Below, in pieces: positions 27,096 to 57,564 of a stretch of DNA of 64,000 bases (the first letter of the stretch is position 1; the number at the start of each line of letters is the position of its first letter). The notes under the pieces were generated by a model. It saw nothing but the letters and a program-made list of their open reading frames with translations, ran no database searches and had not been told where the DNA came from. The DNA comes from Asterella californica (lineage: Eukaryota > Streptophyta > Marchantiopsida > Marchantiales > Aytoniaceae), in the NCBI GenBank assembly GCA_036924285.1, contig JAYKYS010000010.1, forward strand, positions 18,761,001 through 18,825,000. The letters run 5' to 3'. Made by a program: the position numbers and the translations under genes.

Positions 27096-27413
27096 ATGGG
27101 GAATCCAGTTCGAATGACGAGGTGGAAGAAGAGACGTTTAGGAGTTCGAACAGAGACGGAGAAGCCCAAGTTAAGTATAGATGAGTTACGAACACGCATC
27201 TATAGCACTTGGGGTGCCCTCTTTACCCTATACGAAGAAGCTTCCGCGACCATTGGCACAGATTTGAAGAAAGTCGAGTTTAAAGCATCATTCACTATGG
27301 AGGCCACGAATGCTCCTGGTGAAATAGAGTTGGATCCTTACAAGAGTGAGTTCAAGATGTCTGTAGTGATGAGTACAAATGAGGGTGAGGAGGATCATAT
27401 CTTCGATAGTTAA
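27096..27413 (+). CDS. D+ ORF1: small acidic protein of unknown function
   Basis: 105 codons from ATG 27096. From KPKLSIDELRTRIYSTWGAL to the C-terminal DGEEDHIFDS-like acidic end it matches D- ORF1. The first about 25 residues are out of frame relative to D- because of a one-base difference near 27153. The conserved part is rich in acidic and hydrophobic residues (TNAPGEIELDPYK). Family not recognised; a role in the element's own cycle is inferred only from its conserved position. Confidence 0.5.
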   Translation: MGNPVRMTRWKKRRLGVRTETEKPKLSIDELRTRIYSTWGALFTLYEEASATIGTDLKKVEFKASFTMEATNAPGEIELDPYKSEFKMSVVMSTNEGEEDHIFDS

Positions 27414-27551
27414 TTTTAGACTGGATTTTATTTCGTGTATATCATGTATAATACACGATTTCCAATATAAAGCTCGGAAGAGTTAAGAAAGTGATGTAGA
27501 ATTATTTTCCTCTATGATATTTTGTCCACTTAATGGTTGAGAAGGTGCAAC

Positions 27552-28028: not shown

Positions 28029-28241
28029 TGGAGATCGTCATTCGGATGGTGGAGAAGGCGGTGATGCGACTCAGACTCATGATTACCTTGGGAGAAGAGA
28101 TGGCACAAGAGGTTTTGTTACAACCATTTCCTTTCATTTTACCTATGGTAGATTATTCGCGAATGGAATTGGTGATGTTCGTACTCTTTTAGCGAGTAGT
28201 TATTGCACGACGATTAGAAGAGTAGAAAGAGTAGTTAGAAG

Positions 28242-31200: not shown

Positions 31201-33128
31201 GTAGGTTTGTCTTTTCCTTCTCAAACAAAGCAATAGCTTTGACTATGTACATGAAGAAGGGAGTTGATTTTGACTTGATAGTGCATGATCAGAAGGCAAA
31301 GGAAGCATTTGAGGAGCTGAAAAAGGCATTGGTGACAGCTCCTATACTTGCTAAACCTGAGTGGAGTAAAGCATTTATTCTGTATACGGATGCCTCCAAT
31401 GTAGCAATCGGATGTACATTAAGTCAGCTAGATGGAGATGGGCATGATCATCCTATAGCTTATGCTAGTAGGCAGATGGTTCCAGCGGAGAAGAATTACT
31501 CCGTGACTGAACGAAAAGGATTAGCGGTGATCTTTGGATTGAAGAAATTCCGACATTACTTGCTAGGAGGGAAATTTTCCATAGTCACAGATCACAAGGC
31601 TTTAAAGTATATCTTTAATAAGCCTAATGCCGAAGGTCGTATTGCTCGTTGGAAGATCCTTCTAACAGAATATGATTATGTGATCGAAGATAGACCAGGG
31701 AAGAAGCATGCAAATGCTGATCTTTTGTCAAGGGCTTATGATGATGAGGGAGAAGAACCGTTTGATGATTCATTTCCAGACGAGCATCTGATGACCATCA
31801 CAAGCATCGAGGAGATACCGGACGAGTACAAGGAAATCTGGAGTTTTCTTGCAGATGGCTCTTTTCCAGAAGGTATGCATACCCGAGAACGTAACGCGTT
31901 AATCAAGAGATGCAAACCTTACACCATGGTGGAGGGAATTCTATTTCATCAAGGAGCAGATGGGTTACTAAGGAGAGCAGTTGGTCAGAAGGAGGCATTC
32001 AAGCTAATGCACGAGTTTCACGACGGAACTGTTTGCGGAGGTCACTTTGCTGGTAAGATAACAGCCTTCAAGATTTTGGATGCGGGTTATCACTGGAGAG
32101 GGATTTTCAAAGAGTGTTTAGACTATTGCAAAACTTGTGACGTATGTCAAGCATTTGCTCTAAAGTCTACTAGAACACCTCCGTTAAGATCAATTCCAGT
32201 ATTAGGGCCGTTTGAGAAATGGGGTATTGACTTTGTAGGTCCTCTTAATAAGACACCTCGAGGCAATAGATACATTGTAGTCGCCACTGACTATTGTACC
32301 AAGTGGGTAGAGGCTAGACCTTTGAGAGAGACCAATGAAACAGAAGTCGGTAGATTCCTATGGGAGAGGATCATCACGAGATTTGGATGTCCGTTAGAGT
32401 TGGTCTCAGATAGAGGAGGAGAGTTTGTAGGGAGCATGACTACTGCTATGCTACAACACTTTTCTATCAAGCCACGAGTAACGACCTCATACAAACCAAA
32501 TGCTAATGGTCTTGCGGAGAAGACCAATCTTACACTTTGTATGATGCTCGCCAAAGATGCTGGTGTTGAAACTGCGAAACATACTTGGGATAAGAGACTA
32601 CATGCCGTCTTATGGGAGTACCGAACGACGACAAAGACTTCTACTGGGTACTCCCCATTTCGACTGGTTTATGGAGTGGAGTCCAAGTTGCCGATCCAAT
32701 TTGAATTGGATACTTTTCAAACTATTCAACGAAAGTTGAAGAGGTCGAGAGGAGAAGACGTGGTCAGATCAAGAAGAGAGCAACTCATGGAGTTGGAAGA
32801 GACCCGAGCGGTAGCAATGATCCGGATGGAACGAGCTCAGGCGTATCAAAAGAAGAGTTACGACAAACGGTTGGGCAAGAGGGAAGTAAAACCTTTTCAA
32901 GTCGGAGATTGGGTTATGTTGTATGATGCTATCCGATTCAAGAGGGCTAGGAAGAAGTTTCTTCCAAGATATTTTGGTCCTTTTGTTGTAGATAAGGTGT
33001 GGAGCAACTTCACATATGACCTTCAGGAGCTGGGAGGAAGGAGATTCGATCGGGTCAATCATGACAAGTTGAAGTTGTTTCATCAACGGAAGTTCTCTCT
33101 TCACTCCGAGGACGGAGCGAAAATTTAG
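28242..33128 (+). CDS. D+ gag-pol polyprotein (intact, 1628 residues)
   Basis: A single open frame holds all domains in Ty3 order. Gag is about residues 1-290, with the retrotransposon gag core WVLLLPEFLEDFALTWYEDR. The nucleocapsid knuckle CWTCGGSHFQRNC is near 298. The aspartic protease LVDGGSAVNAIS is near 502. Reverse transcriptase has IDYKKLNAV, PFGLCNAPATFQRFMN and FIDDF near 898. RNase H has LYTDASNVAIG and TDHKALKYIF, ending ADLLSRAY. Integrase has the HHCC region up to CKTCDVC near 1296 and core residues in WGIDFVGPL, LVSDRGGEFVG and GLAEKTN. The C-terminal GPY/F-like module is YFGPFVVDKV. There is no chromodomain. The FIDDF and YSGYNQI motifs and the primer type place it with plant OTA (Tat/Athila-like) elements. 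All catalytic residues look present, so it may still be competent. Confidence 0.95.
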   Translation: MGKLPVFHGKDNEDVEPFVRDFKRGCIGNNVRRKEEWVLLLPEFLEDFALTWYEDRVKSQTPGAVEDTWETLSNALIEEFLPEESYEKLMVELTHLRQRDDEKVRQYAERVDKLEQRFRTVLRKSGDNVELTMAGIGAVLTKNLVGGLRPSIRTQVRYEKPATKAEAIKIATNMEESLDEGDIIQPHHAALVSTPIPGVVTTIAPAPSQLVIASTSAPTPTVVSRPVVPTTMSTATSDFHAELKSITDTLADLKINVVQLREWRNKGGGGGQRGYDNNPNRRNQGNFGGNQGNFGGITCWTCGGSHFQRNCPNNGARGAEAVRMNVGGGNPSQGRDKGVATIDVVRDLIYEKGESSNSSHAPVELLAQERKRTRFSDEPVFMEESASRSTRPSNVSSTPREPRRKLGMADFTISSSQAGYDVVEDVGAQKANITVGQLIALNPSLRRELRGGLSSKRSKKKKPKSKTSKSVGVGVVDVHASEVCTRASKIEVRLNGHYVSDVLVDGGSAVNAISERLMKKLGMEPTRPASIVVGMANKQRVRPLGVLEKVVVSVMGVQTLMSFQVLKDSSYDLLLGRPWLRAVRTTDRWHKGYLRIGPRDHRVIVPLSGVGVVTSDSDRPTSDYWESDTEDDQSVSEIDTGDSYDQESSSEDEGCGRDESLHQLSAIDLLPRPAVEKDPDKEELSEAEIVRRLSTLKFGINVTQEEKSRFLDIFRKYIHVFAFSYKDLKEVTLETHRIELEEHARPVRQKQRRVNPTTAMMVKEEIDKLKKASFIYEVENSEWVSPIVIVKKKNGKLRVCIDYKKLNAVTKKDYYPLPFIDEILEEVAGHEWYSFGDGYSGYNQIKIAQEYQQLTTFTTPWGTFAFRVMPFGLCNAPATFQRFMNKVFEPFIGKFVRDFIDDFCVYGRKEDHFDHVIKVLQRLEQANASLNPEKCIFGCEEGLLLGHIISKNGIAVDPEKVKKIVDLPFPINLTKLRQFLGMVGYYRRFVFSFSNKAIALTMYMKKGVDFDLIVHDQKAKEAFEELKKALVTAPILAKPEWSKAFILYTDASNVAIGCTLSQLDGDGHDHPIAYASRQMVPAEKNYSVTERKGLAVIFGLKKFRHYLLGGKFSIVTDHKALKYIFNKPNAEGRIARWKILLTEYDYVIEDRPGKKHANADLLSRAYDDEGEEPFDDSFPDEHLMTITSIEEIPDEYKEIWSFLADGSFPEGMHTRERNALIKRCKPYTMVEGILFHQGADGLLRRAVGQKEAFKLMHEFHDGTVCGGHFAGKITAFKILDAGYHWRGIFKECLDYCKTCDVCQAFALKSTRTPPLRSIPVLGPFEKWGIDFVGPLNKTPRGNRYIVVATDYCTKWVEARPLRETNETEVGRFLWERIITRFGCPLELVSDRGGEFVGSMTTAMLQHFSIKPRVTTSYKPNANGLAEKTNLTLCMMLAKDAGVETAKHTWDKRLHAVLWEYRTTTKTSTGYSPFRLVYGVESKLPIQFELDTFQTIQRKLKRSRGEDVVRSRREQLMELEETRAVAMIRMERAQAYQKKSYDKRLGKREVKPFQVGDWVMLYDAIRFKRARKKFLPRYFGPFVVDKVWSNFTYDLQELGGRRFDRVNHDKLKLFHQRKFSLHSEDGAKI

Positions 33129-33131
33129 TCC

Positions 33132-33142
33132 GGGGGTAAAAT
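33132..33142 (+). other. D+ polypurine tract
   Basis: CGGGGGTAAAA immediately before the 3' LTR, purine-rich except single C and T. Confidence 0.7.
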
Positions 33143-34054
33143 GTAACGACCTATGTTACACATAGGAAGTTTGTCTATTAGTAAGGTATTTAGTTATAAC
33201 TAAGTGTTGAGAATGTTTATTTGCTGCCAAAGTACTTTAAGGAGGTATCAAGTTAGTCATGACTAGCTAAAAGTTAGTTATGGTTAAACTTAGTTGTACT
33301 TTTGGCAGAATTCAGATATTTGCTAAAGAGTGAGCACTACTATCTTGTCATCTTGTCTAAAAGATAGAAAGGAGGTGGAAAGTATCCCTTATCTCCTTTT
33401 TGACTTGATATTAGTGGTTGGATTAAAGTTGTGGACTTTGTGGGCATTAAAAACAAGAAGAGATTCCACATGTTTCCTTTTTAGTGGGTCCTAGTGTAGA
33501 GGGGGGGTGGAAATTCGAGATTCCTTGAGAATATTCCAGAATCCTTCTAGAAGTTGTTGACTTTGAAGGAATAAGCCCATGTGAAAAGGTAAAAAGCCCA
33601 TGTGATCAATGCTTTTACCTTAAGTAATATCTTAGTAAAACCCGGTAAAAGTAGTTAGGCTGAGTTACCGGAGGGTACCAAAGTAAAAACCTAGAATGTA
33701 TAAATAGAGGAGTAGAGAAGAGCTCCTCATCCTTGTTTTCATCGTCGTAATGACAACTTGAGTAATATAGAGAGTGTGGGATATTTTTAGCATGTGAGAA
33801 CTTGAGAGACGTCGTTAGAATGGAGGATTTTAGTGGATGAGATTATGGAGATTTTAGTTGATAAGTTGGTGGGTGTATGAATGAGAGTGAACTTAGCATT
33901 TTTCCCTTCAAGATTCATGGTGTGCTTCCATCAAAGCCATCAGAGGTGACCCCTGAGTGAGAGACAGGCCCGACAGTTGCAGATTCGTGGATGACGATCG
34001 TGGAGGTTGAGAGATCGGGGGGTAGTTGATCGTTAGGACCGCGGAGGGTTTACA
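33143..34054 (+). repeat. D+ 3' LTR
   Basis: 912 bp, nearly identical to the 5' LTR. Seen differences include TTTTCATCG here versus TTTTCACATCG, and GTGTGGGATA here versus GTGTGTGATA. Confidence 0.95.
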
Positions 34055-35089
34055 GTGCTTGGATGAAAGGAGTTCAAGGTGTTGCTCGCAGGACGATTCA
34101 CTCCGGAGTATCAAAGGATTCGGGATGGTGTCGAGCTAGTTAGGCTGAAGCAAAGGGGGACGCTAAGTGCTTATGTACGCGAGTTCAGTGCCAAGCTGGA
34201 TTCGTTCTCCAAGTGGACTGAGGAAACCAAAATATGTATATTTATTGGGGGACTCAAGTCCAGCTCGAAGAAGGCTCTCTTCCGGATGCCGGAACTACTT
34301 GCGACAAGTGCAGAACTTTTGAAGCTAGCGGAGCAAATTGGGGACGATGAAGTCCAACAACAAAAACCTTTTGAACCACGCAGCACGGACAAGTTCTAGA
34401 AGAAGAACAAGGGCTTTAAGTGACAATGGGATGGGGATGAGAAGGATCGGAAGGATTCTTCTGCCCCGGTAGCAAAGCGGCAGCAAACAGGAGCAAAACC
34501 TAAGGGGCAAGCACCTCACAAAGGCAATGGCGCTAAGTTTACTTGCTACGACTGTGGCGGGGCGGGCCATATTGCTAAGGAATGCACGAAACCTAAGGTT
34601 AATAACTGTAGCATGAATGCATTTGTTGCAAAGGATTTGTTGGAGGGCTAGATGACTGTGACCTTGAGAACCACGAAGAAGACGCCGGGATTGATGTTTC
34701 TACAAGCCAAGGTTGCTAACCGTGATGTTACTTTTCTTGTGGACACAGAAGCGACCCACTCCTTCATAAGTTCGAAGTTGGTGAAGAAGTTGGGCTTGTC
34801 TACCTCCAAGGCAAACAAGCATATTCATGTGCGCTTTGTCAAGGGCAAGACGTACCAAACTTCAGAAGTGGCCTTGGACGTACGATTTGCGTGTGGGAAG
34901 TTGGAGTTCATAGAGAACTTCACGATGTGCGAGACGGATGATATCCATGCGATTTTGGGGAACACTTTCTTGGACAGGTTTGAAGTGGAACTTAGGCGGA
35001 AACCTTTAAGGTTGGACGTTAGAGTTAAAGGGCGGAAGCTGGGAGTGAGGCTGATCCGGAAGACGCGGAAATTGATGACTTTGCGGTGA
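34055..35089 (+). pseudogene. Element C gag 3' part and protease (broken)
   Basis: Resumes the C gag after D+: GRFTPEYQRIRDGVELVRLK and CIFIGGLKSS, typical of chromovirus gag, with stops at 34399 and near 34420. Nucleocapsid knuckle CYDCGGAGHIAKEC near 34545-34590. The protease follows at 34652-35089 with LVDTEATHSFIS, where the usual DTG/DSG active-site Gly is Glu. It ends RLIRKTRKLMTLR before the RT frame. Confidence 0.8.
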
Positions 35090-39443: not shown

Positions 39444-39565
39444 ACTACGCGGTGGGAGTGACTGTGGTGGGCACATCTTTCAATGGGGAGGGAGTCGAAG
39501 AGGAACTACGCGATGGGAGTTACTGTGGTGGGGACATCTTTCAATGGGGAGGGAGTCGAAGAGGA
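39444..39565 (+). repeat. 61-bp tandem duplication over the ORF stop codon
   Basis: ACTACGCGRTGGGAGTKACT repeats at 39444 and 39505, and both units run through CAATGGGGAGGGAGTCGAAG. The right unit encodes the last codons of the minus-strand ORF; the left unit is a downstream copy that also ends in TAG. Confidence 0.9.
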
Positions 39566-40762
39566 ACTGATGTGATCGTCGCTCGGAGACGATTCCAGGG
39601 GTTCGGGGAAGCGGACAGAAGGGACGACCGGCGAGGAGGGGGTTGAACTCATATCAGTGTCGTCGTCGAAGGGAGGAATCTCGACGGAACGGAGGGGAGG
39701 GCTGTCCGGAGAAGGCAACTCAAAGTCCGATGTCATGACGCATTCCGCCTCATCATCAGAATGATCCATCGACGAAGCAGAAGGATCATCATCATCATCA
39801 TCCAGTGGGCAGCTGGGAGTGCCAAGGCAGCAACCTAAATTCAAAATCTCATGCAAGAGGGGAGGCGTGAAACGAGAGATTTGTTCAGCATGGTAATGGT
39901 ACGTGTTAAAAGGGATTCCTTGTCGAGCGTTTTCAAATATCTGCGGCTCCATCTCGAACAGGCGCGGGCTGCGTTCCATCTCTGGAACTGTTCCCAGCGC
40001 CACTTCGTCATAGATCATTTTCCAGATTCGCACCAATCGTGGACAAATCCTAATTCGGTTTTGAAACTTCATCAGATCTTTCACTAACTCTTGGAAGAGC
40101 AAATCTGCCCAAGCAAGATGCCCACCCGTTTCGAACGACAAGACTGCCATGGGCAAGTACTGAATTGGGAACTTGTAGGGATAGCCGGGCCATCCGAAGA
40201 CGTATTGTAAGCGTGTTAGGTAGTCGAAAAAGGGCATGTGGAAACACGTCTCGAAGAGTATGTATTCGGTTCCTCCGCGCGATTTTTCGATGATTGGGAC
40301 GGCAAAGTACCGTCTTGTAGCAGGCCTTAGCCAGTTCTCATCCGTGTGTTGTGGCGGTACTTCTAAGGTTTCGTGATGACTCGATCGGGCTGGCAAACCG
40401 GGGAATAGGCGCTGAAGGTCTGCGACTCCGTAAACAACTACAGGTGCGGGAATGGGTACGTTTCCGGGTCCCGTTTGAGCGAGAACGCTCGGTGACACGA
40501 GGATGCAATCATCCTCATTCCCGACAAAAAACTCGAGTTTGATCTTTTCCGTAAACTCGTCTGGAATTTCAGGGAAGTCATATCTCATTAACGACATCAG
40601 TCCAGCGCTGTACAGGTTTTCTCGATCATCTTCATCTAGTGACCAGAAATCAGACATTGCAGGTTGTAGATAAAGGATTGGGCATTCTTCATCATGATGG
40701 TGGGGGTGGCCAGCTGGACCTAAGATCTCCTGCAAGACTGCTGGTGCCCTCAGACTGGTCAT
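39506..40762 (-). CDS. Unrecognised 418-residue protein
   Basis: A single uninterrupted frame from ATG 40762, far longer than chance for this region. Residues 1-300 look globular: a start with HPHHHDEECPILYLQP, aromatic clusters (FFDYLTRLQYVFGWPGYPYK) and a run of hydrophobic blocks (YLPMAVLSFETGGHLAWADL). From about 310 it becomes acidic and Ser/Pro-rich and disordered (six Asp in a row, DHSDDEAE, PSSPVVPS). No signal peptide or membrane segment is evident. No family recognised: it could be a lineage-specific nuclear protein, or a captured transposon-encoded protein given the setting. A TATA-like ATTAAATATG lies on the minus strand near 40940. Confidence 0.6.
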   Translation of the reverse strand: MTSLRAPAVLQEILGPAGHPHHHDEECPILYLQPAMSDFWSLDEDDRENLYSAGLMSLMRYDFPEIPDEFTEKIKLEFFVGNEDDCILVSPSVLAQTGPGNVPIPAPVVVYGVADLQRLFPGLPARSSHHETLEVPPQHTDENWLRPATRRYFAVPIIEKSRGGTEYILFETCFHMPFFDYLTRLQYVFGWPGYPYKFPIQYLPMAVLSFETGGHLAWADLLFQELVKDLMKFQNRIRICPRLVRIWKMIYDEVALGTVPEMERSPRLFEMEPQIFENARQGIPFNTYHYHAEQISRFTPPLLHEILNLGCCLGTPSCPLDDDDDDPSASSMDHSDDEAECVMTSDFELPSPDSPPLRSVEIPPFDDDTDMSSTPSSPVVPSVRFPEPLESSPSDDHISSSSTPSPLKDVPTTVTPIA

Positions 40763-41855
40763 TATGTATGAGCTATTTCCTTTCCGTCGTGAGGATGCTC
40801 ACGATGGAGAACTGAGAAGGTCTGAGTCGGCTGGTACAACAGGATTAGAAAATGCTGCAGGTTTTCACGGTGTACATTTCCATTGCGTGGCCGCCTGAGA
40901 GCTCATAATCAGAATGAGATGTCAGTCTACGCATATTTAATGCGCACCGCGAAGTGTGTTCCATCCGAGTCGGTGTGATAGTGTGAATGTCGAACTGATT
41001 CTATGATACTGTGAGCAAGTCTTGTCGCCAACTATCGGAGTACTACGAGACCATCTCCACAATGATTACATCAGTTTTGGTTATCATGGTCAGTATCATG
41101 TGTACTTACTGTTGATGGCATAACCAGCCCCAGTCGAGAAGTTCTTCGGGCCGGAATTCGTCTTAAGTGGCTCGGTAGGTGGATGGCATTGACGTTCCGA
41201 GGCGTGCAGGATGGCATTGTTTCAAGTCGATGACGTCGTGGACGTGGTATGGAACCCGCGTTCAAACAAATGTGTGAAACGACGCAGCGTTCTAATAGTG
41301 CCTGATTGTTTATGAATCACGCACGCAGCGATGCTTCCGCTTTAGGATGGGGGCCAGTTAATATAGCATGTACTGGAAATACGAGTCAGGAGTGGCTTGA
41401 GTGCAATCTTACAGCACTGTAAACCTGTAACGTTATACTTTGGTTTCGTATGCCCATCATGATTGATCATGGAATCACTCGCATTCCCAGTTACGACCTG
41501 AGCTCAACCTCAACTTTTCAGCCTGACCTATGCATTATCAGGATAATATCGCAGCACTCTAAGCTGAAGAAAGTGGTTCATCACACTGTAATACCATAAT
41601 CCTGGTTCATGTAAGGCTGCATACGATGGACGTTACAGTGCATGCCAGCCACTCAATTCCTACCACATTACTTACATTTACTAGACTGCAGATCGACAGT
41701 CAATCACCGCGAATTTGACATGAAGAGCTATCACGGAAGCTTAATTACAACTTGCTGCAGATAAATTCAGATAAAAATTTCGTTGTTGCAATCCCGGAAG
41801 ATACTCGGACCCGAGAGATTCACTAGCGCTTCATTTTTATTTTTCTTTTTAATGT
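40763..41855. other. Non-coding stretch, possible promoter of the 418-residue ORF
   Basis: No ORF of note. A TATA-like element near 40940 on the minus strand is the only candidate regulatory site. Otherwise nothing recognised. Confidence 0.35.
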
Positions 41856-42003: not shown

Positions 42004-42959
42004 CTTCATTCACTTGGCTAGGTTCTGACAGAAATGATGAAGTGTGGGGGTGGTTTAGGATGGACTTGGTAAAGAAGCGTTGTAAGGAAAAGTGAAGCAG
42101 TCTTGGCCCCTCGCGGGACTGAAGTTGCAGGATGTGAAGTGGGAGGGATAGTGATAACTGGAAAGGACTTGTAAAGGTGGGTCCCCACGGAAGAAAGCCC
42201 ATAAGTGAAGTAAAGAAGGTGGGAGAGCTCGAGAGATAAAACGTATGATCTGAAGGGCATTTTCCATCTTTGCGCTTGGGGCAATGACGCAGTTAGTGAG
42301 GTGAAACCGAGACGCGTCAATTGCTGGTTGAAAACTATTTCCAAACCCCCGCTCGTGCCTTAACCGGCGCGTGCGAATTTCTGGAAGGTCTGTATTGCAC
42401 AGACTCACGATCAATCCAAATAGGAGACTCTGGAACTCGTCCGGCGTACCTCATGTGTTGTGGGTAGATTATTCATCTTAACCATTTCTCACCCGTCTTA
42501 TGGCCTTAGGCGGGAGTTCGATCAGAACCCACAACGTTCAGATTAGTATGGAGAAGCGCGAGCATCAAATTTTCCGTGTCTGCATTCTCTAGCAATTTGG
42601 GACACTTCTCGGTGACGCTAGAAATCCTAATCCCGTCAATTTCACGGGCCCCGATTTAACAAGCCCTGTTCTTCTCCATACGGTTTCCGTTCTACGAAAT
42701 CTCTAGTTCGCAGCTTCCACTAATTCCAGAAGCATTTCACGGGAAGCGTTCTCTACTAGAAAAACCACTAGAGATCATAACTCTGTCAGGGCGTCTCGAG
42801 AAAAACACATCCTGTAAACGGGAACGGCCAGTCCTGTAATTTCTTTACGTACTTTGTTCGTTCGTAAAACGACGACTCACCTGTAAATACAACTTGTGAG
42901 ATTTTCTTAAGTAGATGGTTTCAAGTGCCAAACTGTAATAATGTTCAGAGCAACTGCAT
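42004..42959. other. Unassigned non-coding stretch
   Basis: Three minus-strand frames are open across 41867-42414 at once, which argues for base-composition effects and not for a gene. Nothing else recognised. Confidence 0.4.
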
Positions 42960-43285: not shown

Positions 43286-46049
43286 AATATCCAAGAAGTT
43301 CATCCAGCATGCATATTGATGTTTTATTAGACCGTCTTGTAATTCCTGACTGTAATGTTTAAGAGGATATGTAAAGTTATCCATATATGATAAAAACAGG
43401 TTTTACAGTGGACTCAAACATCTCACAAAGTCTCCGTAAAATTCACTTACAAGTTTTCACGGACGTCATCTTTGCTCCCCTCCATTTTTCGACGGTGATA
43501 TGGTGACACTCCGTAATACCCGTAAATCATTCTTGTTTCACTTTATAAGGTTTTCTTCGTCAGACGAACGGGCATCTCTAGAGTCCAGAGTTACCTTGTA
43601 AAAGTTTTCGAAAATTCTTGTAATCGGTCTGGACGATTAAGTCTTATTTGTTCACTACTGTTCAAAAACCCTTTCAATACTACATTTGTTTGTTTTTTGC
43701 AGGTACTACCACTTTAAACTACTAGATTAACTCTAATCCCGTTTTCAGTTTTACGGGGTGATGTGAGAGACACTCTATTATCTAGTAGCTCTTGGTTAAA
43801 ATTATAGTTGTTTTCATTTTCCTCGCTTTAGATATCCCCCGTAGTAGTAGGATGGATACACTCTCTCACTCTGTTCTCTAGTAGCTCACCATTAAAATTG
43901 TAATTGTTGCTATGTGTTAGAATAGTTAAACTTTGATTGTGAAAACTGAAAAAATATAGAAATTTTTGTTGTGGTGTATTTTGTTGTATTATTAGTAGAT
44001 TAAAAAGAGAAAGACGAGTTCGGGAAATAACAACCCAACGGAGAGAGTCGTTGTGAAACCTGAAAAAGAAAGACCAAGTACTTTGGACTTAGATAAATAG
44101 CATATCCTTGTAATTCCATTGCAAGCATATCTCTTTGTTTTCATTTTTCTTCATCCAAGTATACACCTTGGTAGTGGGATAGAGGTATGTCGTACCGTTC
44201 TGATCGTTGTAAGGACAAAAAGATAAATCAGACATTCTAATATACTCTCCACTATATTTTTGTGACTTTTTTCTCGCGACAGAAATTTTAGATGTCTTTA
44301 TCAGAAATTTACTGACATGTTGAGTTTGTGACTCCTGAGCGCATATGCATTTGCAGATGAAAAACTCTAGGAAGATTGTTTATCCTTCAGATGGTATGTC
44401 ACTTTATGTGGAGTAGAGAATTAGTTCTGCATTGCAGAGGGAGTAAGCAGAGATTTTATAAAGAAGAGTTAAGATACTTTCTGTGTCAGTTAAAAAAGAG
44501 ATACATTTTGTGAATCAGCTCATGAAGACCCTTGCTTCCTTACTTGAGGAAGTTCCGCAGTCTAGACATAGCTAGTGTTCTACGAGGACTTTTTCTTTCA
44601 GTTTTTTTGTTTTGTGATGTTAGCTTTGTAACCCAAGTGAGGTTTTTCTCAATTGTGTGTTAATAAGTTTTCTTTTTTTGGATTAATATCTCTTTCACTC
44701 ATCTAAAATGGAAATCCAAAGGAACATGATTAATTATGCGAATGAACGGGTTTAACCGATGCAGATTACATAGATCAATATTGATCTATTCCCATTCCTT
44801 TTTATTCATGGTTTAGTAACTTCTTTTGATGATGATAATGTTGATTTGGTGAAACTTGTTAACTCCTAATAAGAGAAAATAGTAATCTTCTTCGATAAAG
44901 AAGGTACAAAAATATATTTTGTGATACATTCAACTTTTAAACTGTACAACCTGTGCTCTAGATGACTAGAACTTGGATTTCAAAAGTCGCATTTTTTTAT
45001 TCTTGGAGTTGTATATCAAATGGCTTGTTTGAATGTGAACTTGGAAGAGATGAAAGAGACTATGTTGAAAAATATGTTTCAAACAAAAACTCAATACTAT
45101 GAACAAAAGAATAAAAATCTTCCAAATAAAGCCAAGATTCACCTGAACTCGTGGTTTACCACCTTTAGCTAAACTCATCACCAAGTGCACAAAATATGTA
45201 ACAAACCCTAGCCTTTGGATTAGCCTGATTAGCTTCTCCAAGAGAGTCTCTCAGTCTTTCTGGTGCTTTGATCAAGGTGTCTTTCAGCCTGGTGACAGCA
45301 AATGATGCCTCACTCGTCTTCTAGCCTTCCTCTCCACAGGAAAACAACCTTACGGTGAGGGCGATATAATAGGAGATGTGAAAGTTAGGAATCTTTCTGA
45401 AAGACTTTACATCCAAGGGAAGGAGTTACAACTTCAACCAAACCTTAGTAGGTGTTTCGTGCGGCACCTCCGGAGGTATCTGTTTTGCGGATGTTTTTTT
45501 AACGATTACTTATTCGTTTTATCTGTTCTTTTTTGCAGTGAAATATTTACTACTCTGAGTAATGATCTCTGAGCGTCAAAGCTGAAAAAAATTAATTAAA
45601 GAAGTTATGATTCCGAGTCACAAGCACGACCCTGACTCATTCGCGCTTCCCTACAAGTTAACTACTGCAATATTACGGCTCTTTTTCTCTTCGCTGTTGA
45701 AAAATATTTACCTCCCAACTTTGACAACCCTAATAGAGAACAAAAACACACTGGACTTCGCCGTTCGTCGTCTGCAAAATATTTGACTCCGGGTCTGAGA
45801 CTGGAGCTTGTTCAAACCCGGTAAACAATTACTTTTATTTATTTTCTGACATATAGCAATTTTTCAACACAGCTGTCATGATCTTCCATGCCCTTTGGAC
45901 CAGCGGGTCAAGGTCCAGAATAGAGAGGAGAATATGCATGGTCTTAGACATTTCGTCCAAAGAGGCACGTGCGGACAAGCGCTGAAGGCGATCCAAAATA
46001 ATCGATTGTGGTTTGTCCGTGTAAGGGAAAAACGCGCGTCCGCAGTATA
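43286..46049. other. Long AT-rich intergenic stretch
   Basis: No convincing gene. There is a pair of roughly 120-bp direct repeats near 43760-43915 (shared phrases TCTAGTAGCTC and AAAATT(A/G)TA(G/A)TTGTT). Short ORFs at 44966-45241 and 45378-45572 have no recognisable motif. Confidence 0.4.
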
Positions 46050-46450
46050 TTTGAAGGCAATATAAAATTTTGGCGCGGCTTAAAAGGACACTTCGGGGGT
46101 GTACCTCGCTTACGTTAGAGGCTGTGTGTTTTAGGGTGTGGTTTTGGGGTGTATGTCGATGGTGGGTGTAGCGGAAGTGGGGTATACCTTCTTTGTTCTC
46201 GTTTCACCATCTGGTCGTACTCGTTTTCGATGGCTGTTGCAGAAGTGGCGATATAAAATTTTGTTGCGGCTTAAAAGGACGCTTCGGGCTGTACCTCGCT
46301 TTCGTTAGGGGCTGTGTGTTTTAGGGCGTGGTTTTGAGGTGTACGTCGGTTTCGTTACGGGATCTATAGTTATGATGGTTTGGGGGTATACCTCAGTTTT
46401 GTCTGGTGGGTGTAGCGGAAGTGGAGGTATAGCTTCTTCGTTGCTCTAGC
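46050..46450 (+). repeat. Two-unit tandem repeat, about 191 bp
   Basis: TTAAAAGGAC(A/G)CTTCGGG recurs at 46080 and 46271. Each is followed by TGTACCTCGCTT(A/T)CGTTAG and GGCTGTGTGTTTTAGGG, and later by GTGTAGCGGAAGTGG. It lies upstream of the Rep-like locus. Confidence 0.8.
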
Positions 46451-47736
46451 GGGCAGTGGAACGCACGGTTGCACGGCACGACTGTTTCGACACCTCGTTT
46501 GTTCGTGTTCTTCGTTCTCGTCGATTAGGCTTTGTTTAGGGTGATGCGGTTTACTTTGCACATCTCAATGGCTTAAGTCTGCCATGGACAGACTTTCTTG
46601 AAACGGGAGCGGTCCAGTTTGTGATTCTGCTGGTGGCGTTTTTCGAGGCGGTCGTGTGCTGACTTTGTTTTGCTTGGTTTTTTAGGCCGTGACATCATAC
46701 AGGACTTGGGCATTATGGCTTCTTGGAGCGACTTGTGTTGCAAGCAGACGAGAGAGAAACGTGAATTTCAACAACCGCTATGGGTATATCGAGCACATTA
46801 TGAAGTCTGCTCAGGCAAGCCCGACCTGTTGCTTGTGTTGAATCTCGGGCTGCGGATGCAAACAAAAGTTCGTGTCGGTGTTGCGTGGATTGCAGCCAGT
46901 CTGCCGTGTGCCATGTCGTTCACATCAGACCCGACTCTCCTGCAGCCAGGCGGTAGCGGACCGTGGATTTGTGGATCCTTTTCCGATATGAGTATATCGA
47001 TGAGCAGTATGCTGGTGGCATGAGACGGCGTACTGTCAATGACGTCTTGTAAGTATTCTGGTCATTCACTGATTGCTTCGTCTCTACACTCGCGAGGTAC
47101 TTATAATTTTTCCCTGCCTACAGCTAGTTCGCTACGCATTGATGTTGCTTTTCGTCCCTTACTTTGCATCTCAATGATGAGCATGGTGATGACCGATCCT
47201 GACCTCGTACTCGAGCCAGAGGTAATTTTGGAAAATCCAGTTACTCCTCTTTCTGTGTCATCTGTGGCAAACTCGCCTTACAATATAGATGTGCTCTACA
47301 TTCCGAAAGGCTACGCGCCTCCTCTTCCTTCCTAGATGAGTTGCTTGCTTCTACTGTTACTGTCTTAAGTTACAACGAGAGAATACTTCTTTTTTCGTTT
47401 GACTCATTTTGTGTTTACTTGGATTTGCTTTCTCTGCGCATCCACCGCACTTCTTGCTTGATGAGGATTTCGTAAAGGTAGATCGCTCTTTCCTTGCCTT
47501 GTCGAGTCCTTTCATGTATTTAGGGACCACTGATGACGAATACTGGTTAATTCTCCAGGACAGCTTCCTTCGGATGTTTAGTTATCTTAGGTATTACGTG
47601 GAAATCGGCACAAACCTTCTGCGTCTTATTGTTCACTTCATTTATCGTTCTCGTCAACTGCCTTGTGTTTGCTCTGTGCTCCATTGCGAGTGTTGTCGAT
47701 ACTTGTGTCCTCATTTTCCAGACCCCACGCGCTTGA
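46451..47736 (+). other. Region upstream of the Rep-like gene, possible extra exons
   Basis: Three ORFs of 98-124 codons (46670-47023, 47039-47335, 47409-47783) have no recognised motifs. Splice-like sites are visible: GTAAGT at 47049 and pyrimidine-rich CAG acceptors at 47123 and 47721. I could not assemble a continuous coding path, so the 5' part of the Rep-like gene may lie here or may have decayed. Confidence 0.3.
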
Positions 47737-48695
47737 ATGTTTCTTCGGAGACAGGCGAGGACGAAGAAGGTAGCGCCCTCTAGCTACAAGGCCTTGGAAC
47801 TGTCTGTGACAGTGTGTAAAACTGGGGGTGATTTAGACATGTCTTATTTTGCTATGTTGCAACAATTCCTTGAGTCTGACTGCTCTTTTGGCATTTTCTC
47901 AGTAGAAAGGGGGGGGGAGCATTCTTGCATCTGCACTACCAAGGTGTTATTGCTATCTCTGCCAAGTCTTGTCAAGAGGTGAAGAAGCGTAGCATGTCTT
48001 CCTTAGGTTGGAATCACCAATGTCCAGTAAGGGCTGAGATCTGTGTTAAAGGACTGATCAATAAGAGACTCTACGCATACGTGGGAATGATAGGATATTG
48101 CATGAAAGACGAGGCCGAGGTTCACCATCACGCACACATGAAAAATATCTCTGAGAGTATGCTTCTGGACGGTAAGGAGCTCTATACACTACTTGGTGCT
48201 TGTGACATGAAAAATCGTGTTGAATTGTGCTACGCTAATATTTTTACGCGTGCGCTGTAGTATAATAAATATAAGAGTAGTCACCCTTTCTCCGCTACTT
48301 TCAGCAGTTATCTTAGGGACATGATAGAGTCTGGAAAGTATTCTGCATCACCGCGGTGGTTAATGCAGACTGGAATTCAGGTTCGTAGAGTGAACTCGTT
48401 GTGGAAGTCGTTTATACATCCTGAGCAAGTTACACCTGAAGACATTCAAAACATATTTTTCTGGCAAGAACAGCGCAGGTGTGGTCATTGTAAGGGCAGG
48501 TACATGGATGCAGATGACAGTCTGGGAAAAAAAGCCGCTCCTGTTGCTGATCCCCCTGCAGCGTTCCCGAGCGCATCGGACTCACAGGCACAGCAAATGG
48601 ACACACTGTCGCAGTACATTCCGCTTGCAGAAGCTTTTATGAGGAGCACTGGCTCCGACAGGGCACGAACGACAGAGCAACATGATTTGGCATAG
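47737..48695 (+). pseudogene. HUH endonuclease (Rep-like), probable Replitron-type transposase, broken
   Basis: Two frames join at a run of nine G at 47909-47917. Before it: SSYKALELSVTVCKTGGDLD (Rep motif I-like strand) and FGIFSVERGG. After it: LHLHYQGVIAISAK, with an H-hydrophobic-H motif, then MIGYCMKDE, with the Tyr-x-x-Lys motif 56 residues later. The spacing and order (motif I, ERGG, HUH, YxxK) are those of Rep-family HUH nucleases, which nick DNA with the single Tyr. The frame continues with one TAG at 48258, then SSYLRDMIESGKYSASPRWL and a CGHC pair, to a stop at 48695. No helicase domain or second catalytic Tyr was seen, unlike Helitrons. Two lesions make it a probable pseudogene, unless the G-run is a sequencing error. 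The Replitron label is inference; a virus-derived Rep is the alternative. Confidence 0.6.
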
Positions 48696-49020
48696 CACAG
48701 TATAGACTATACTGTCGACAACAGCAGACTAGTAGTTTCCAGTGTACAGCATAGTTTTTACTACTTCTTACTAGTTCGAACTGCTGTAAGTTGCTGCTTG
48801 TTGTTTACAGTATACTGCTGCTTATTGTTTATGGAATAACGTTCCTGCTTACAAAGTACATAGACTATACTTTCGACTGTACATGAGAGTAGTAGTTTCC
48901 AAGTGTACGGTATAGTTTTTACTACTTCTTATTGTTACTTCCAGTGTACATGACGTAGCTATTCGGATTCACATGTCTGTCGGTTTGACGCAGTGTTGCA
49001 CGAAAAATTTGCAAGCCCAC
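48696..49020 (+). repeat. Two-unit tandem repeat, about 158 bp, just after the Rep-like gene
   Basis: TAGACTATACTNTCGAC recurs at 48703 and 48861; each is followed by AGTAGTTTCCA and ATAGTTTTTACTACTTCTTA. Position right after the stop suggests subterminal repeats of the transposon. Confidence 0.8.
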
Positions 49021-49059
49021 CTCGTCTTCCGTAAATATTGGGCGTAAAGAATATGCAAG

Positions 49060-49235
49060 CTCAAAATATTATGGGTACAAAATGTTCGACGCGACGTCCT
49101 GTTGGCTATGGCAGCAATGATTTTTGCAAACTCCGTGGGTATGCATGCTAAAAATATTTCCTGTAGAAAATATTCGAGGCGACGTCATGTTGCCTATGCT
49201 AGGAATAATATAGTAGGAATAATATAGTGCGGAGA
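49060..49235 (+). repeat. Two-unit tandem repeat, about 88 bp
   Basis: GCGACGTC(C/A)TGTTG(G/C)CTATG recurs at 49091 and 49179 within similar contexts, followed by a 14-bp doublet TAGGAATAATATAG. Confidence 0.75.
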
Positions 49236-50179
49236 GTTTTCCGCCATAAGAAGAAACCTGAGAAGGATGAATATGCATGCAGAAAAAATGGTGTTCAAAA
49301 CAAAGAAATCAGTTCTTCCCACTAAAATCAAAAATAAAGAACTCAATTCTATAGTCATCATGAATTTTGTGTTATCTTTTTGCTCCGTTTCATTTTTCTC
49401 ACTATTCCTCGTGTCATGATATTATTAAACTGGGTAATCTTTGCATTATTGTTTTATCACACTGTTATGGTTTTGTCTTATTACCTAGCATCTTATCTCA
49501 AGTTGGCTGCAGCTCCTTATGATCTCACACACACTTTGGAAAAACAATAACAGATGCATTGTATCATGTAACGTATCATACACGACCGAAATTTCCAAAA
49601 ATAACGAATTCATTTCGACAAAATCATGTATATTTACAACACTGTCATTACTCAGCAAATGGATAATAGGTGTATATAGATCAGAATTAGTGTGAATTAA
49701 TCCTTCCTGGTGTTTAACGGGATTCCTCGTGCTAAGTCCCCAGAATAGAACCTTCTAAGACAGGTCCTGAAGCCAAGAAAGTCCTTCTTTTGTAATCTCT
49801 TATCAAGGAGGAACTGTTTATATGATTATTTCATACAGCAAGTATTGCCCATATTGTGGTGATCTTTAATATGCATCCAAACTGCAATTTTGAGAAAAAA
49901 GAGTAAAAAGATAAACATTTAATCATCAGTAATTTGCTGACAACAACCTTTCGTGAAATATGCCGTGTAGAGCGCAAAGTCACGAGGCGTCAACCTTCAG
50001 TGAAAAATGTAATGAAGAGTGAAAAAATCACGGGAATAAGATTTGCAAATGGTTACTTCCGTCAAAGTTAATTTTTCTAAATTTAAAATATCAAATTTAG
50101 ATCCTATTTAGAACTTGGTTACTCATGTCACTCCAACTATACAAAACCCATAAGTGTATCACGAGAACAGAACCTCCGT
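49236..50179. other. AT-rich stretch, nothing recognised
   Basis: No ORF above noise, no RNA gene, no clear repeat. Confidence 0.4.
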
Positions 50180-51378: not shown

Positions 51379-51825
51379 TCAGAATATCTGCAACCTATCC
51401 TCAGTAGGACAATATCTAACTTCTATAACTTTTCCAGCGACGTGATCTTTGATGAAGTGATATCGGATGTTGATGTGCTTCGTACGGTCGTGGAACTTGC
51501 TAGTGTCGACAAGGGTCATAACACTTTGGTTGTCACAATATGTAACAGTGGGTTCCTTGTCATGCAATCCGACGTCAGTCAAGAGCTGATGTAACCAGAT
51601 TGTCTCTGAACAGCTCGTGCTAAGAGTCACATATTCTGCCTTTGTACTTGACAGGGCTACTGACTTCTGTCTCTTAGAGGACCAGCTGATGGCTCCTCCA
51701 GAGTAGATGAAGCAATGACCTGATGTGGACCGTCTTGTCTCTGCATGTCTTCCACAATCAGCATCGGAGTAACCAAACAGGGAGTAGGGCTGGGATGACT
51801 GAGCATACTCAAGGTATAAATTCAA
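51379..51825 (-). pseudogene. Copia RNase H
   Basis: Reads YSDADCGRHAETRRSTSGHC, WSSKRQKSVALSSTKAEYV and CDNQSVMTL, then the HIN(I)RYHFIKDHV end, the standard copia RNase H motifs with the acidic residues present. It is separated from RT by a stop region around 51830-52060, part of which (SPVTEDEKKLC.. on minus) continues the frame with a stop. Confidence 0.85.
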
Positions 51826-52065
51826 AGTTCCCTTGATGTAACAAAAAAATCCACTTCATAGCGGCAATGTGTCTAGGTCCAGGACTACTCATAAGTTGAG
51901 AGAGTACACTAATGGGATAAGACAAATCAGGACGAGTGCATACTGCGACCCAATTAATAGAGCCAGCTGCACTCTGATAAAGATAACTATTACATAGCTT
52001 CTTTTCATCCTCAGTGACAGGAGAGTCATCCGAGGAAAATTTCTCACCTGTAACTAGAGGGGTGC

Positions 52066-53022
52066 TTACAGGTTTGCAGTCCTATAAGCCAAACTGAAAT
52101 AGTTTCTTGTCAAATACAAAGTTTGACTAAGTCTGATAGTGTCAGAAGATGGATCACGGTTAATTTCAATGCTAAGACAATGATGGACTGGACCGATGTC
52201 AGTCATTTTGAACCATGAGCTCAATTTCTCTTTTACGTGGGATAGTAGGGCCTCACTGCTACTGGCAATCAAACTGTCATCCACGTAGAGGGCAAGGATG
52301 ACGAAGTGTTGTTTCTGGTGCAAGTAGTAAATATTTCCGTCTGCACCGGACTTAGCAAATCCAAGAGAAAGCAAGAATTTGTCGATGATCAAGTACCATT
52401 CTCTTGATGATTGCTTAAGACCGTAGAGAGTCTTAAGCAATCTGCATACTTGGCTGCGCCTTGCTGTAGTCACTCCTTCCGGAACACACATGTATATTTC
52501 TTCGTTAAGTGTTTCAGTTTTAACATCCATTTGATGTACATGTAGATTATACTGCTCTGAGATGGCAAGGATGAGCCGTATTGACTGAATACAGACTACA
52601 AGGGAAAAAGTTTCTGTGTAATCCAACCCGTAGATCTGAGTGAAACCATGAGCCACGAGTCTCGTCTTATACCGAGCAATGGACCCATCGGTATTAAGTT
52701 TTAACTTAAAGGTCCACTTACATGTTATCGGCCGGCGTCCTTGTGGCAAGTCGGTGAGCTTCCAAGTATCATTAGATTCATGAGAACCTAACTCCTCCTC
52801 TATTGCTCTCCTCCACTGATCGACATCAGGAGAAGATACTGCTTCTGTGTAAGAAACAGGTTCCATTAGCACAGGTTTGAGAGTTATCATCAATGCACGC
52901 TTGGTGTTCTTTCGAGACTTCGGGATCAGCGATGAAGGGTCATAACCTTCATCTGGGTTCCGTTGTGGATGAATTGAATGTCGAGCTAATCGTCTCAGTG
53001 GAGGCGGTGCTGAGAAATCCAA
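52066..53022 (-). pseudogene. Copia reverse transcriptase
   Basis: 318 codons covering WRRAIEEELGSHESNDTWKL, KWTFKLKLNTDGSIARYKTR, LDYTETFS, QMDVKTETLNEEIYM, LYGLKQSSREWY and the catalytic YVDD (LALYVDDSLIAS). Small departures from the family (KTETLN where KTAFLN is usual; SREWY where PRQWY is usual) indicate decay. It ends 45 bp after LSQTLYLTRNY. Confidence 0.9.
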
Positions 53023-53889
53023 TGGAGGAAGGGAGGACTCGCTATGTGTAGGACCGTGCCAGTAATAATTTCCATGTTAGTTATTCTTATGAATAGTTTT
53101 CCAAAAATTATTAGTACTCCATGTTCAAAACACTAAGCATTGAGTTCAAAGCATGGAAATAATTTGAATATGAGAGTATGCATAGGTTGTCTTTGCTATT
53201 ATGGTTGGAGTTCGAAATGAGTTTCTCAAGGTGATTCAACTCTTCACTATAGATTGTGAATTTGAAGTGATAATTTCGAATCCGTAAGATCGACCTAAAA
53301 GTAAGCATACACTTGTTTTCAAAGTGAAGAATTCTTGCTTATATGGATGATGATTCAGAGATTTACACATCTCGGTTTGTCTCTTCGCTTGAGAGAAGCA
53401 TTTAGAGAAGCATGCATGTTCACTATTTCATCTTCCGAAGGAGGTCGCATGCCTCACTAATTTATAATGAAAAAGTTATGTAACAAACTAACAGTAACCA
53501 TAAATTAATGGTTTTCTAGCATGTGACCTCCGGTCTTGTACTCTCGAAAGCGAATGCTCCCCTGCTTCACTTATGGATTCTGTCTAGATGTCCCCATGAC
53601 TCTTCTTTTGTATAACACTTAATTATAAGATTTAGAAACAAATGAATATAAATATAAATTTAGTGTTATATTTTTATATTATATATACATATATACATGT
53701 AATAGATAAAGAACAAAGACAACAAATCAAAAAACACTTCCCAATCTCACTCAGGTCTTCAAAAACTCCACTTTGCCCGGGAGCCAATCACCTGCTATAT
53801 TTATTATTTTCCTCTTGTTACATCGCTTGTCCTCTTTTAGCTTTTCTCTTATAGCTTTTCGTCTGGTGTACACTTTAGATGTATATTTA

Positions 53890-54225
53890 GGATATGCACA
53901 CTTCCTTGCATATTCATCTCCTCTATCTTTCGATGGAGGAGGTAAATATGTAGGAGTTTAATTTAATACCTAACCCTTCCGGCAAGAAAGGTTAGGTATT
54001 AAATTAAATTCAGTATAAATGAGTTTAAATGAGTACGGATTTCTAGACTTGTACGTTCTGAAGCGCGGCACTCGGGTCAAGTCTTATGGGTTATCTCCTA
54101 CTCTCTCTGTGTTTTCAGACATGGACTAACAGATAAATTTTATAAAATATTTTGATTATTTATATTTAGTTAATATATTTATTTATTTAACATATATATA
54201 TATATTCCTGATAACATTAAACGAT
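53890..54225 (+). repeat. AT-rich dispersed repeat with hairpin, copy 2
   Basis: Contains a perfect 15-bp stem: ATTTAATACCTAACC, a 14-bp loop, then GGTTAGGTATTAAAT (about 53971-54014). Shares flanking phrases with copy 1 at 42960-43285. Confidence 0.8.
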
Positions 54226-54239
54226 CAATAGTTCCCTGA

Positions 54240-54508
54240 AATTGATCTTGAGTAAAGATCTCCCATTGAGTAAATTGCTCTTCCTGCAAATGCTTCAGCA
54301 AATTCATCCACAATCGGTCCCACCCCAGCGTTTCTGATTGTTATTGCGTTCATCCGTTGCATGTCTTGGATGAATCACATCGATCCATTTCTTCTTAGGT
54401 ACTGTAAATCATCTGCTCGAATACGGTGCAAACGACGGCTTCAAGATCTTCATTCGCATCTTCTCCTTCAGCAACTCTACCAGTTTAGGCAAGTGAGCCC
54501 GTAGTGAG
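54240..54508 (-). pseudogene. Captured fragment of element B reverse transcriptase
   Basis: About 270 bp closely similar to 15140-15405 in element B (shared GAGTAAAGATCTCCCATTGA and AATACGGTGCAAACGACGGC) without adjacent B sequence. The match ends abruptly at GTGAGCCCG, where copia sequence resumes. Confidence 0.9.
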
Positions 54509-54529
54509 CATGATGATATGCGCCGAAGG

Positions 54530-55999
54530 TAAAGATGGCGCGGGCTCAAGTTCTCTGCAGGAGGAGAGGAATTATGTGTATGGCTTGAGGAATGAGAACG
54601 TGGAGGGCGACTACTCCCACTAGACTGTGTACTGCTGGTGACTCCTCCGTCAGGGCCATGACTGCTAGAGACTCCTCCCCTCCAGATCTAAGACTAATAG
54701 ATGGAGCTGGAGCTGGACCGGCAGGAGATGGCAGGGAACTCCCATTGAAGGGAAACCAGGAGAGACGGACGGAACGTAAGCTGGGTCAGCAGAAGGGGCA
54801 GGCGCAGTATGATAAAAATGGACGTCGGTCTCAGGAGACGCTTGAGTGAGTGGGAGATCAGCAGAAAGGACGGATGTGGGAGAGAGAGTCGGAGAAGACT
54901 CATCGAAGATGACATCACGAGAGGTGAAGATATGATCGTCAGATTTTCTTTGGAGATGGTAGCCCTTACTCTGACCGCTATAGCCAAGGAAGATACACTC
55001 GTGAGAGCGATCATCGAGCTTTGTACGCTCAACCTTGAGGACTTGGAAAAAAGCGCGACAGTCAAAGACGCACAAAAAGGAGAGATCGGATCGACGAGGA
55101 GTTGTGGAGGCATAGGAGTGCTAGAGTTCGTAAGGTGTGGTCATAGACGGGATAGCCTTAGACGGACATCAATTCTGGAGGAAGGTGGCGCAAGTGATGG
55201 CTTCACCCCAGAAGGACTTGATAAGACTGTAAGTGAAAAGCATAGAACGGACAGCATCAAGCAAGCTGCGGTTCTTACGCTCAGCAACACCGTTCTGCTG
55301 AGGAGAGTAAGGGACTGTGAATTGACGCTGGATGCCGTGCTCACGACAAAAAGCGTCAAAAGTAGCTAAACGATATCCTCCATTGTCAGATCGCAAAGTA
55401 ACAAGAGATTGATCAGTGGCGCACTCATCAAATACGAGATAGTCCCAGAAAGCAGCAAAACAATCACTCTTATAGTAGAGAAGACGAGTGACAGTGTAGA
55501 GCGAGTAGTCATCAATGAAGGTGATGAAATATTCATAGCCCAAAAAAATGCAAAGAGAGACGCGACCACTAATATCAGAATGGACCAGTGCCAGGGGACG
55601 AGTTGATCGAGTGGAGCTGGCACGTGGGAATTTAGTGCGTGCATGCTTGCCGTGTGCACAAGCTGGACAAATATCCTCAGAGAGTGGGAAGGAAAGGAGG
55701 CCGGTAACATACCTGCGGTGGCTCAGCTCATGGACTCGATAGTGGTTGATATGACCGAGTCGCTGATGCCACAAGGTAGAGAGATCACCCGTTGTAGTAA
55801 CAAGGGCACATGATCGAGGTGGCGTTGGTGGAGGAGTCTTGCTACCAGATGTGAAACCCTGAAGACCTTCTAGTAGACGCGGAGGAGATCGCGATCGAGA
55901 AGATAAACTGGAGAACTCGGAATTTGCAGAGTGCATGTCAGAAAAAACCCAAGGTAAAACCTGGTTAAAGGTCGGGTCGGGCCTTGTAAGTCGGACCAA
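54530..55999 (-). pseudogene. Copia integrase
   Basis: In 55169-55999: LWHQRLGHINHYRVHEL and CPACAHGKHAR form the zinc region. The core is LALVHSDISG, VTLRSDNGGYRLATFDAFC and GVAERKNRSLLDAVRSM, so the D-D-E residues are present. It ends at 55169 by frameshift and continues at 54665-55075 with DDRSHECIFLGYSGQSKGYH and a Pro/Ser-rich tail. The C-terminal extension runs into the insertion at 54508. Confidence 0.85.
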
Positions 56000-57060
56000 G
56001 TCGGGTCGAGTCGAGTCGGGCCTAGTAAGCCGGGATGCGGGTCTAGAAGGCCCTACGCGGGTGACGCGATTGCAGTGACGAAGTGACGAGTGGTCACAGT
56101 GACGAGTGGCGCAGCTGTAGTGGCGGAGCCCGTCACGGATCCCGGAGGATCCGTGTTAGCAGTCCAGTGTCTCAGGTCGGCGGAGGTCGCGGCGACCTCC
56201 TCCGGCATGGGAAGGAGACTGTCTCTGTGCGGAGGCAATCCGTGCAGGAGATGGGCCCTCATCCCATCCCTTTGGGGCATTAGGATGGAGTACCATCCCA
56301 TCTGTAGGGACGTTATCTCCGATGGGGAGCCGCTTGCATATCCCCGTACGTTGCGGGTGCGGCATGGACGGATGGAGATGGGGTCCTCATCCGATGGGGT
56401 CACCATCTCCATCCTCATCCCCATTGCGTGTGGGGGGCTGGCAGTCCGTGTGAGGACGCGTGGTTCGACGAGACCGCGGGAGACGTGTCTCGTCGGGAGT
56501 CCCTGCGCCGACAAGGGACTCCCTGTCGTCATTGGGTGCAACGCTCAATGTGTATGAGGGAGTCTCCGCGTGAGAGTCCCTAGTGACAAAGGACTCCCGG
56601 CCTACAGACGTCATCAGGACGTTCTGTGGTCTTGGGAGGTCATGATGGAACTCGATCCGTATGAGGAGAGGAGGTGTGGTGCCAAAAGGTATTCCAGTGG
56701 GTGTTCGTGAGGTAGGAGGCAGGCCAGATGGTGGTGTCCACATGGGAAAAATGCCAAGAGGCGTGGAGGTGAGGAGGGTAGAGCTAGCCTGTGACAGATT
56801 TTGACCCTATTATCCAAGTGCGATATTTCCGGAATTTGTGGAGTGAAGACTTCACTATGCTCCGAAATCAGAGGGGAAAAAATCTGTGAGTCACTTGTGT
56901 GCATGTCTTCATGGGTGTGCACATTCTGTGAGGCGAGGCTGGATCTGGACCGTGGGAAGTGGTCCAGAGTCTTGCGCATATTGCGATTGAATAGAGAGAC
57001 GCTAGTCCACTGGTTTGATTGCGGTCTAGCTCGCAGGCGCGGTCCTGATCTCTGGCTGGG
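56000..57060. other. GC-rich insert between copia protease and integrase
   Basis: In copia the LY-L motif after protease is normally a short distance from the LWH-RLGH start of integrase; here they are about 1.2 kb apart. The 55990-56620 part is strikingly GC-rich with short repeats (GTGACGAGTGG twice, CATCTCCATCCTCATCCCCAT) and palindromes (GGATCCCGGAGGATCC-like; GAGGTCGCGGCGACCTC). Origin unknown. Confidence 0.55.
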
Positions 57061-57534
57061 AGGTAATGTGTGGACTATTGGAGTCTGATCCGTTGTAGTG
57101 ACAAGTGCGGTTTGGTCAGCGACCAAAATTGAATTCCCAAGCATGTAGAGATCGTCAACGCTGGGACAAGGAGCTAGCACTTGTCCGAATCTGTCTTCTA
57201 TGTGACAGAGTCCGTTGTCAATTAAGCACCAGCCGTCATTGGCATCAAATTGCCGAGCTGAGAATAAATTCTTCTGCAAAGCGAGCACATGGAGAACGTC
57301 ACATATGTACACATGCTCGCCGTTGAGCATGCGTACTTCCATCATGCCAGAACCAACAACGTGGATGGTGGGGTTGTCATCGAGTAGAATCGCATCATTC
57401 TCAGTGTTCTCAGTAGAGACAGATGAGTATTCGACGAATTGTCGTCGATTATGTGTCATGTGGTGTGTGACACTCGTATCCACATACCAATTAAGGTCAG
57501 CTGTCTGCACGATTGTAGATGAACATTGTGCCAC
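57061..57534 (-). pseudogene. Copia protease
   Basis: LNWYVDTSVTHHMTHNRRQF at the start matches the copia protease site DTGATHHM, with the Gly replaced by Val. It continues with GMMEVRMLNGEHVYICDVLH, FSARQFDANDGWCLI and SVDDLYMLGN. Frame continues into the GC-rich insert to a stop at 56614. Confidence 0.8.
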
Positions 57535-57564
57535 CAGAACTCGACGAGTGTTGCTGTTGTTGTT

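Follow-up and report, generated by a model that had tools for sequence, protein, structure and literature searches.

A locus in Asterella californica that is almost certainly a decayed Replitron, its sister copies and a domain upstream of the nuclease

What kind of element left the traces of a Rep-like HUH nuclease at 47737-48695 of the 64-kb stretch of Asterella californica DNA analysed here? This stretch, which we call the window, belongs to an assembly of 516.7 Mb in 773 contigs. A preliminary description, made from the letters alone, had offered two answers: a decayed Replitron, or a related undescribed element. We conclude that the locus is almost certainly a decayed Replitron copy and one member of a multi-copy family of the host, this being the best explanation of the evidence. 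The second answer is unnecessary; the element is of a known kind.

The four motifs on which the first reading was based, LSVTVCK, FSVERGG, LHLHYQG and GYCMKD, are all present on the + strand in the order claimed, the former two in the frame of 47737 and the latter two in that of 47880. By themselves they are near to chance: the window has two instances of a loose H-U-[HQ]...Y-x-x-K pattern, compared with an average of 0.65 over 20 randomised versions, three of which contain at least two. The match to the Replitron_HUH profile is not chance. In the Pfam scan, PF21859 (Replitron_HUH) matches the 47880-48257 piece with an E value of 4.4e-8 and 34 bits, the Pfam cut-off being 28.5, and its positions 40-127 of 128 place the domain at 47922-48185 (+ strand, frame of 47880). 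Next in the expected order comes the Replitron C-terminal domain (48285-48461, +). There, PF21860 (Replitron_C) matches the 48261-48692 piece at E 0.0017 and 19.1 bits, under the cut-off of 27, and a protein of the liverwort Riccia sorocarpa, P0001 (R1sor_024833), is 38 % identical (E 6e-20). Replitron_C also matches 12 of the 15 Riccia proteins scanned, in every case below the cut-off. Pfam returned nothing for the 47737-47979 piece. Among the 35 stop-to-stop frames of at least 60 aa between 45.3 and 49.8 kb, only the Replitron_HUH piece reached a curated Pfam cut-off and none matched a helicase or Helitron family, which bears out the absence of a helicase noted earlier. The tyrosine motif is likewise single, GYCMKD being the only one. 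PHROGs and NCBIfam gave no meaningful match, a protein search with short pieces gave none, and in viral contigs the pattern matched four stretches, none of which was confirmed.

Longer queries led to close relatives. A protein search with the single-frame stretch 47880-48692 retrieved five proteins, and a search with the alignment of these five, in which scoring covered the 7996 candidates with the most words in common, found at least 28 at E <=0.001. All are from Riccia sorocarpa, and 22 of the 28 carry a precomputed Replitron_HUH domain. In tblastn, 27 of them match the locus at E <=1e-5 and the remaining one at 0.016, and elsewhere in the window, beyond 44-51 kb, nothing reaches E <0.1; three fragments of the locus match P0001 (E 1e-11, 4e-37 and, for the C-terminal domain, the value given above). 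Identity to 13 of the 28 ranges from 36.6 to 46.2 % over 178-187 residues, and in a tree with those 13 the locus forms a lone long branch. The structure model of an uninterrupted Riccia relative has an HUH fold, and its ten best solved matches are all CRESS Reps, the best of them from circoviruses and nanoviruses. The window's own shortened piece gave a model of low confidence that has no HUH match.

The active site can be followed residue by residue. The first part of the HUH domain (47752-47916, +, frame of 47737; 42 % identical to residues 108-162 of P0001) contains the motif I region ELSVTVCKTG (47797-47826, +), which aligns with the Riccia rows, and VERGG (47902-47916, +), whose glutamate is found in all 19 Riccia rows covering the position. 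The predicted metal-binding stretch H-L-H-Y-Q (47928-47942, +) and the predicted catalytic tyrosine motif GYCMKD (48093-48110, +, with the tyrosine at 48096-48098) were placed by Riccia and host-locus alignments. For Riccia, 26 proteins were aligned (the 28 less P0008 and P0028), of which 18 cover H-L-H-Y-Q. None of these 18 has the first histidine, its place being taken by N (15 rows), Q (2) or K (1); 15 keep the second histidine and 17 the glutamine. In 22 host loci (L001-L022) both histidines are present throughout and the glutamine in 21; in a second host set, the decayed copies L042-L060, 18 of the 19 loci match, with the first histidine in 13 and the second histidine and the glutamine in 15 each. 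Conservation of the tyrosine extends to 16 of 17 Riccia rows (the last being gapped), to 22/22 loci of the first host set and to 16/18 of the second. The HLH site originally proposed therefore holds in all 22 host loci but in 0 of the 18 Riccia rows. Since the first histidine is kept in the host only, and the second histidine and the glutamine in both, HYQ, an H-x-Q, is the pair common to host and Riccia. The Riccia proteins resemble the locus in having an HUH domain with H-x-Q and YCxK and a C-terminal domain, and differ in carrying N, Q or K where the host has the first histidine. The circovirus Reps treated in part of PMC9973303 have the same H-x-Q form, there called HUQ, with a glutamate eight residues earlier as third ligand; in Riccia the VERGG glutamate lies nine residues before the pair. 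By analogy with circovirus Rep, this glutamate is likely to be the third metal ligand.

The copy in the window is interrupted twice, and reading 47737-48695 as a single frame meets 14 stops. The frame changes at a run of nine G (47909-47917, +): the frame-1 tblastn matches of 14 of the 28 Riccia proteins all end exactly at 47916, and their frame-3 matches start at 47913 or 47916 in 13 cases and at 47889 in one. A sequencing error in this run may be the source of the frame change. The other interruption, taken from the list of open reading frames, is an in-frame TAG (48258-48260, +) between the HUH and C-terminal domains. Many of the scored Replitron_HUH matches elsewhere in the host lie in open frames without stops.

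Such matches number at least 150 in the host genome, all above the cut-off (150 of 1557 candidates were scored), and none was found in 14 control genomes. At the DNA level, the query 45900-49400 has at least 76 matching pieces, up to 92-93 % identical, with 40 of 279 candidates scored; the best host match of the Riccia protein P0006 (R1sor_026536), with 95 of 3521 candidates scored, is 53 % identical. No second Replitron copy was found in the window: the only tblastn hits of the three pieces outside the locus had E 0.40 and 0.71, and blastn with 45.5-50.5 kb as query picked up one AT-rich match and otherwise just local tandem repeats. Two pairs of host loci look, from their sequence identity, like recent copies: L028 and L029 (99.5 % over 3769 bp) and L023 and L024 (98.4 % over 2560 bp). 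As the host is rich in Replitrons and has pairs that are near-identical from end to end, their ends, age and recent movement are open to study. To the left of L029, a stretch of 26 bases or more is repeated directly past the 3' end of the copy, as either a long flanking repeat or the trace of an earlier tandem.

Sister copies also define the ends of the element, and their shared limits agree with the span of 46.0-49.3 kb first suggested. The whole copy, of about 3.35 kb, extends from 45931 to 49279 (+), with an uncertainty of about 10 bases at the 3' end. Sister alignments start at 45931 in L042, L044, L046 and L048, at 45930 in L045 and at 45924-45926 in L047, L049 and L058. The 3' end rests on the four loci that reach it, with alignments ending at 49275 (L050), 49281 (L052), 49285 (L046) and 49287 (L042); within the 45900-49400 query, the limits of the DNA search are 31-32 and 3376-3389. 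An exact 11-bp direct repeat, GAATATGCATG, lies at both sister-defined ends (45930-45940 and 49269-49279, +). Among 2000 randomised pairs 12 % share an 11-mer, as do 26 of 186 real segment pairs; taken alone the repeat is within chance, so that the ends were unproven until the sister copies fixed them. AATATGCAT(G) likewise starts the sister copies, and the right edge reads GGGTGAATATGCATG in L042, L046 and L052 and GGGTGAATATG in L050. In 18 other host loci (L023-L040), whose left edges were located by pairwise alignment, these edges read AATATGCA in 14, AATAAGCA in 2 and AGRTGAATATCATC in 2; the right edges vary by family and are mostly CTATAATGCAAGGAAG or CTATAATGCAACGAAG. The length and the 11-bp repeats fall in the ranges that the Replitron passages of PMC10741241 give (0.9-4 kb, with terminal direct repeats of 5-11 bp). 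The same passages give a target duplication of 2-8 bp; none was recognised at the edges examined, the exact 3' end being uncertain. Inside the element, an imperfect tandem pair lies in the 5' part (46056-46348; 103 bp, 89 %, spacing about 190), which partly aligns in sisters, and another in the 3' part (48702-48931; 72 bp, 86 %, spacing about 160), which aligns in them; both were found by blastn.

Several sequences near the element deserve a remark of their own. Extra AATATGCAT words occur outside it at 49868 (+) and 43317 (-). The one at 49868 forms part of AATATGCATCCAAA, which is found again in L031 and looks like the left ends of further Replitrons of the host; it is perhaps the mark of short non-autonomous copies. 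The left flank at 45551-45734, an interspersed repeat adjoining the element, matches an end of L013 in the host at 78.6 %.

Upstream of the nuclease lies a domain without a Pfam name (47451-47657, +), in a region examined after weak tblastn hits there (E 0.042 and 0.62). Several Riccia proteins have common sequence N-terminal of the HUH domain, with a conserved core around GPFYF...NNxYLILKDRxGxxFLHPKY. When the window was cut into 2064 six-frame segments, a profile built from five of them only, with no window sequence inside, picked out a single clear match, at this place, with E 1.5e-5 and 21.7 bits; 20 randomised windows reached 8.5 bits at most. A broader first profile had given E 0.0013 at the same place. 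Of the 28 Riccia proteins, the five behind the profile match it strongly and one more weakly. In the host, the domain precedes the nuclease in 20 of the 22 loci L001-L022 (E <=0.004; misses in L009 and L018; best E 1.2 against the same loci reversed). It is also present in 15 of the 19 loci L042-L060 (E <=0.003; misses in L054, L057, L059 and L060), among which L044 and L050 are the same site, as are L053 and L057. Locus L005 has the N-terminal, HUH and C-terminal domains together in a single open frame (859-2400, 514 aa). From its presence in both host sets and in this single frame, it follows that the domain is an ordinary part of these transposases. For the first half of the N-terminal region of the Riccia proteins there is no match at the locus (the best hit in the window lies elsewhere, E 0.47) and none at E 0.01 in L001-L022. 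Pfam found nothing at E <=0.5 over the region in six proteins scanned, nor did the profile find anything in the PDB up to E 1, and the Replitron passages of PMC10741241, PMC13231165 and PMC13253262 do not mention such a domain. The chances seem evenly balanced that, in the host and in Riccia alike, Replitron transposases have three domains, including an ancient, unrecorded N-terminal one, perhaps a target- or chromatin-binding module. It offers a concrete new target for the study of how Replitron enzymes choose their DNA.

Could the locus instead be an endogenous fragment of a Rep gene from a CRESS-DNA virus? Such a Rep consists of an HUH domain followed by a superfamily 3 helicase. The Reps of circoviruses, nanoviruses and geminiviruses have the fold of the Riccia relative's model, as its ten best matches illustrate, and they share the H-x-Q and YCxK chemistry. 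At the locus, however, the HUH domain is followed by a Replitron_C-like one, the frames scanned gave no helicase match, Replitron_HUH is the sole family above its cut-off, and many copies with transposon-like ends exist. Nor does sequence tie the locus to viral Reps, PDB searches giving a best E of 0.22 from the locus and of 0.94 with the Riccia alignment. A viral origin is accordingly very improbable.

We attach still less weight, to the point of neglect, to a host gene domesticated from a Replitron and to a fragment of a Helitron. Some sister open frames are long, as a domesticated gene would have it, but the sisters also copy the non-coding parts of the element up to common ends, and the copy at the locus is broken twice; for the window copy, domestication is refuted on these grounds. 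Alongside Replitrons, eukaryotes have Helitrons as HUH transposons, and these carry two tyrosines and a fused helicase. The locus, too, is HUH-based, but it has one tyrosine motif, no Helitron or helicase family match and a Replitron profile match above the cut-off, which refutes a Helitron fragment at the profile level. The Replitrons described by Craig in 2023, with Replitron-1 of Chlamydomonas reinhardtii, reportedly move by copy and paste and have a single tyrosine plus a second domain that may serve oligomerisation. Set beside that description, the locus is like Replitron-1 in its single-tyrosine HUH transposase, its Replitron_C-like second domain, its lack of a helicase and its short direct terminal repeats.

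How a Replitron of this family might move can be proposed from the HUH superfamily and from the same account. An intact sister would encode a single-tyrosine HUH transposase of three domains. This enzyme would attach to single-stranded DNA at the short terminal repeat, with a divalent metal held by the VERGG glutamate and the H-x-Q pair. The tyrosine of GYCxKD would nick the DNA and keep the enzyme linked to it by a 5'-phosphotyrosine during copying of the element by host polymerases, the copy then being joined to a new site. The C-terminal domain may oligomerise the enzyme and the N-terminal one may help to find DNA or chromatin.

Other features lie elsewhere in the window. Two elements in opposite orientation, 3045-11796 (-) and 25287-34058 (+), are 95.7 % alike and, going by their proteins, presumably Ty3/gypsy-like. 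Their terminal repeats measure about 910 bp, the two pairs being 96.5 % and 99.6 % alike, and both elements adjoin copies of another repeat family (18467-24284). They probably cause a switch of GC skew near 20 kb. Tandem arrays that are related to one another and repeat about every 157 bases occupy 12009-12508, 19894-20394 and 22344-22834. Pieces of a decayed retroelement, which we take from its proteins to be Ty1/copia-like, are spread over 51379-57564 (-). An open frame of 430 aa at 39506-40798 (-) has no Pfam match at E 0.1, and a full-length match to U4 spliceosomal RNA (106.7 bits) lies at 42266-42404 (+).
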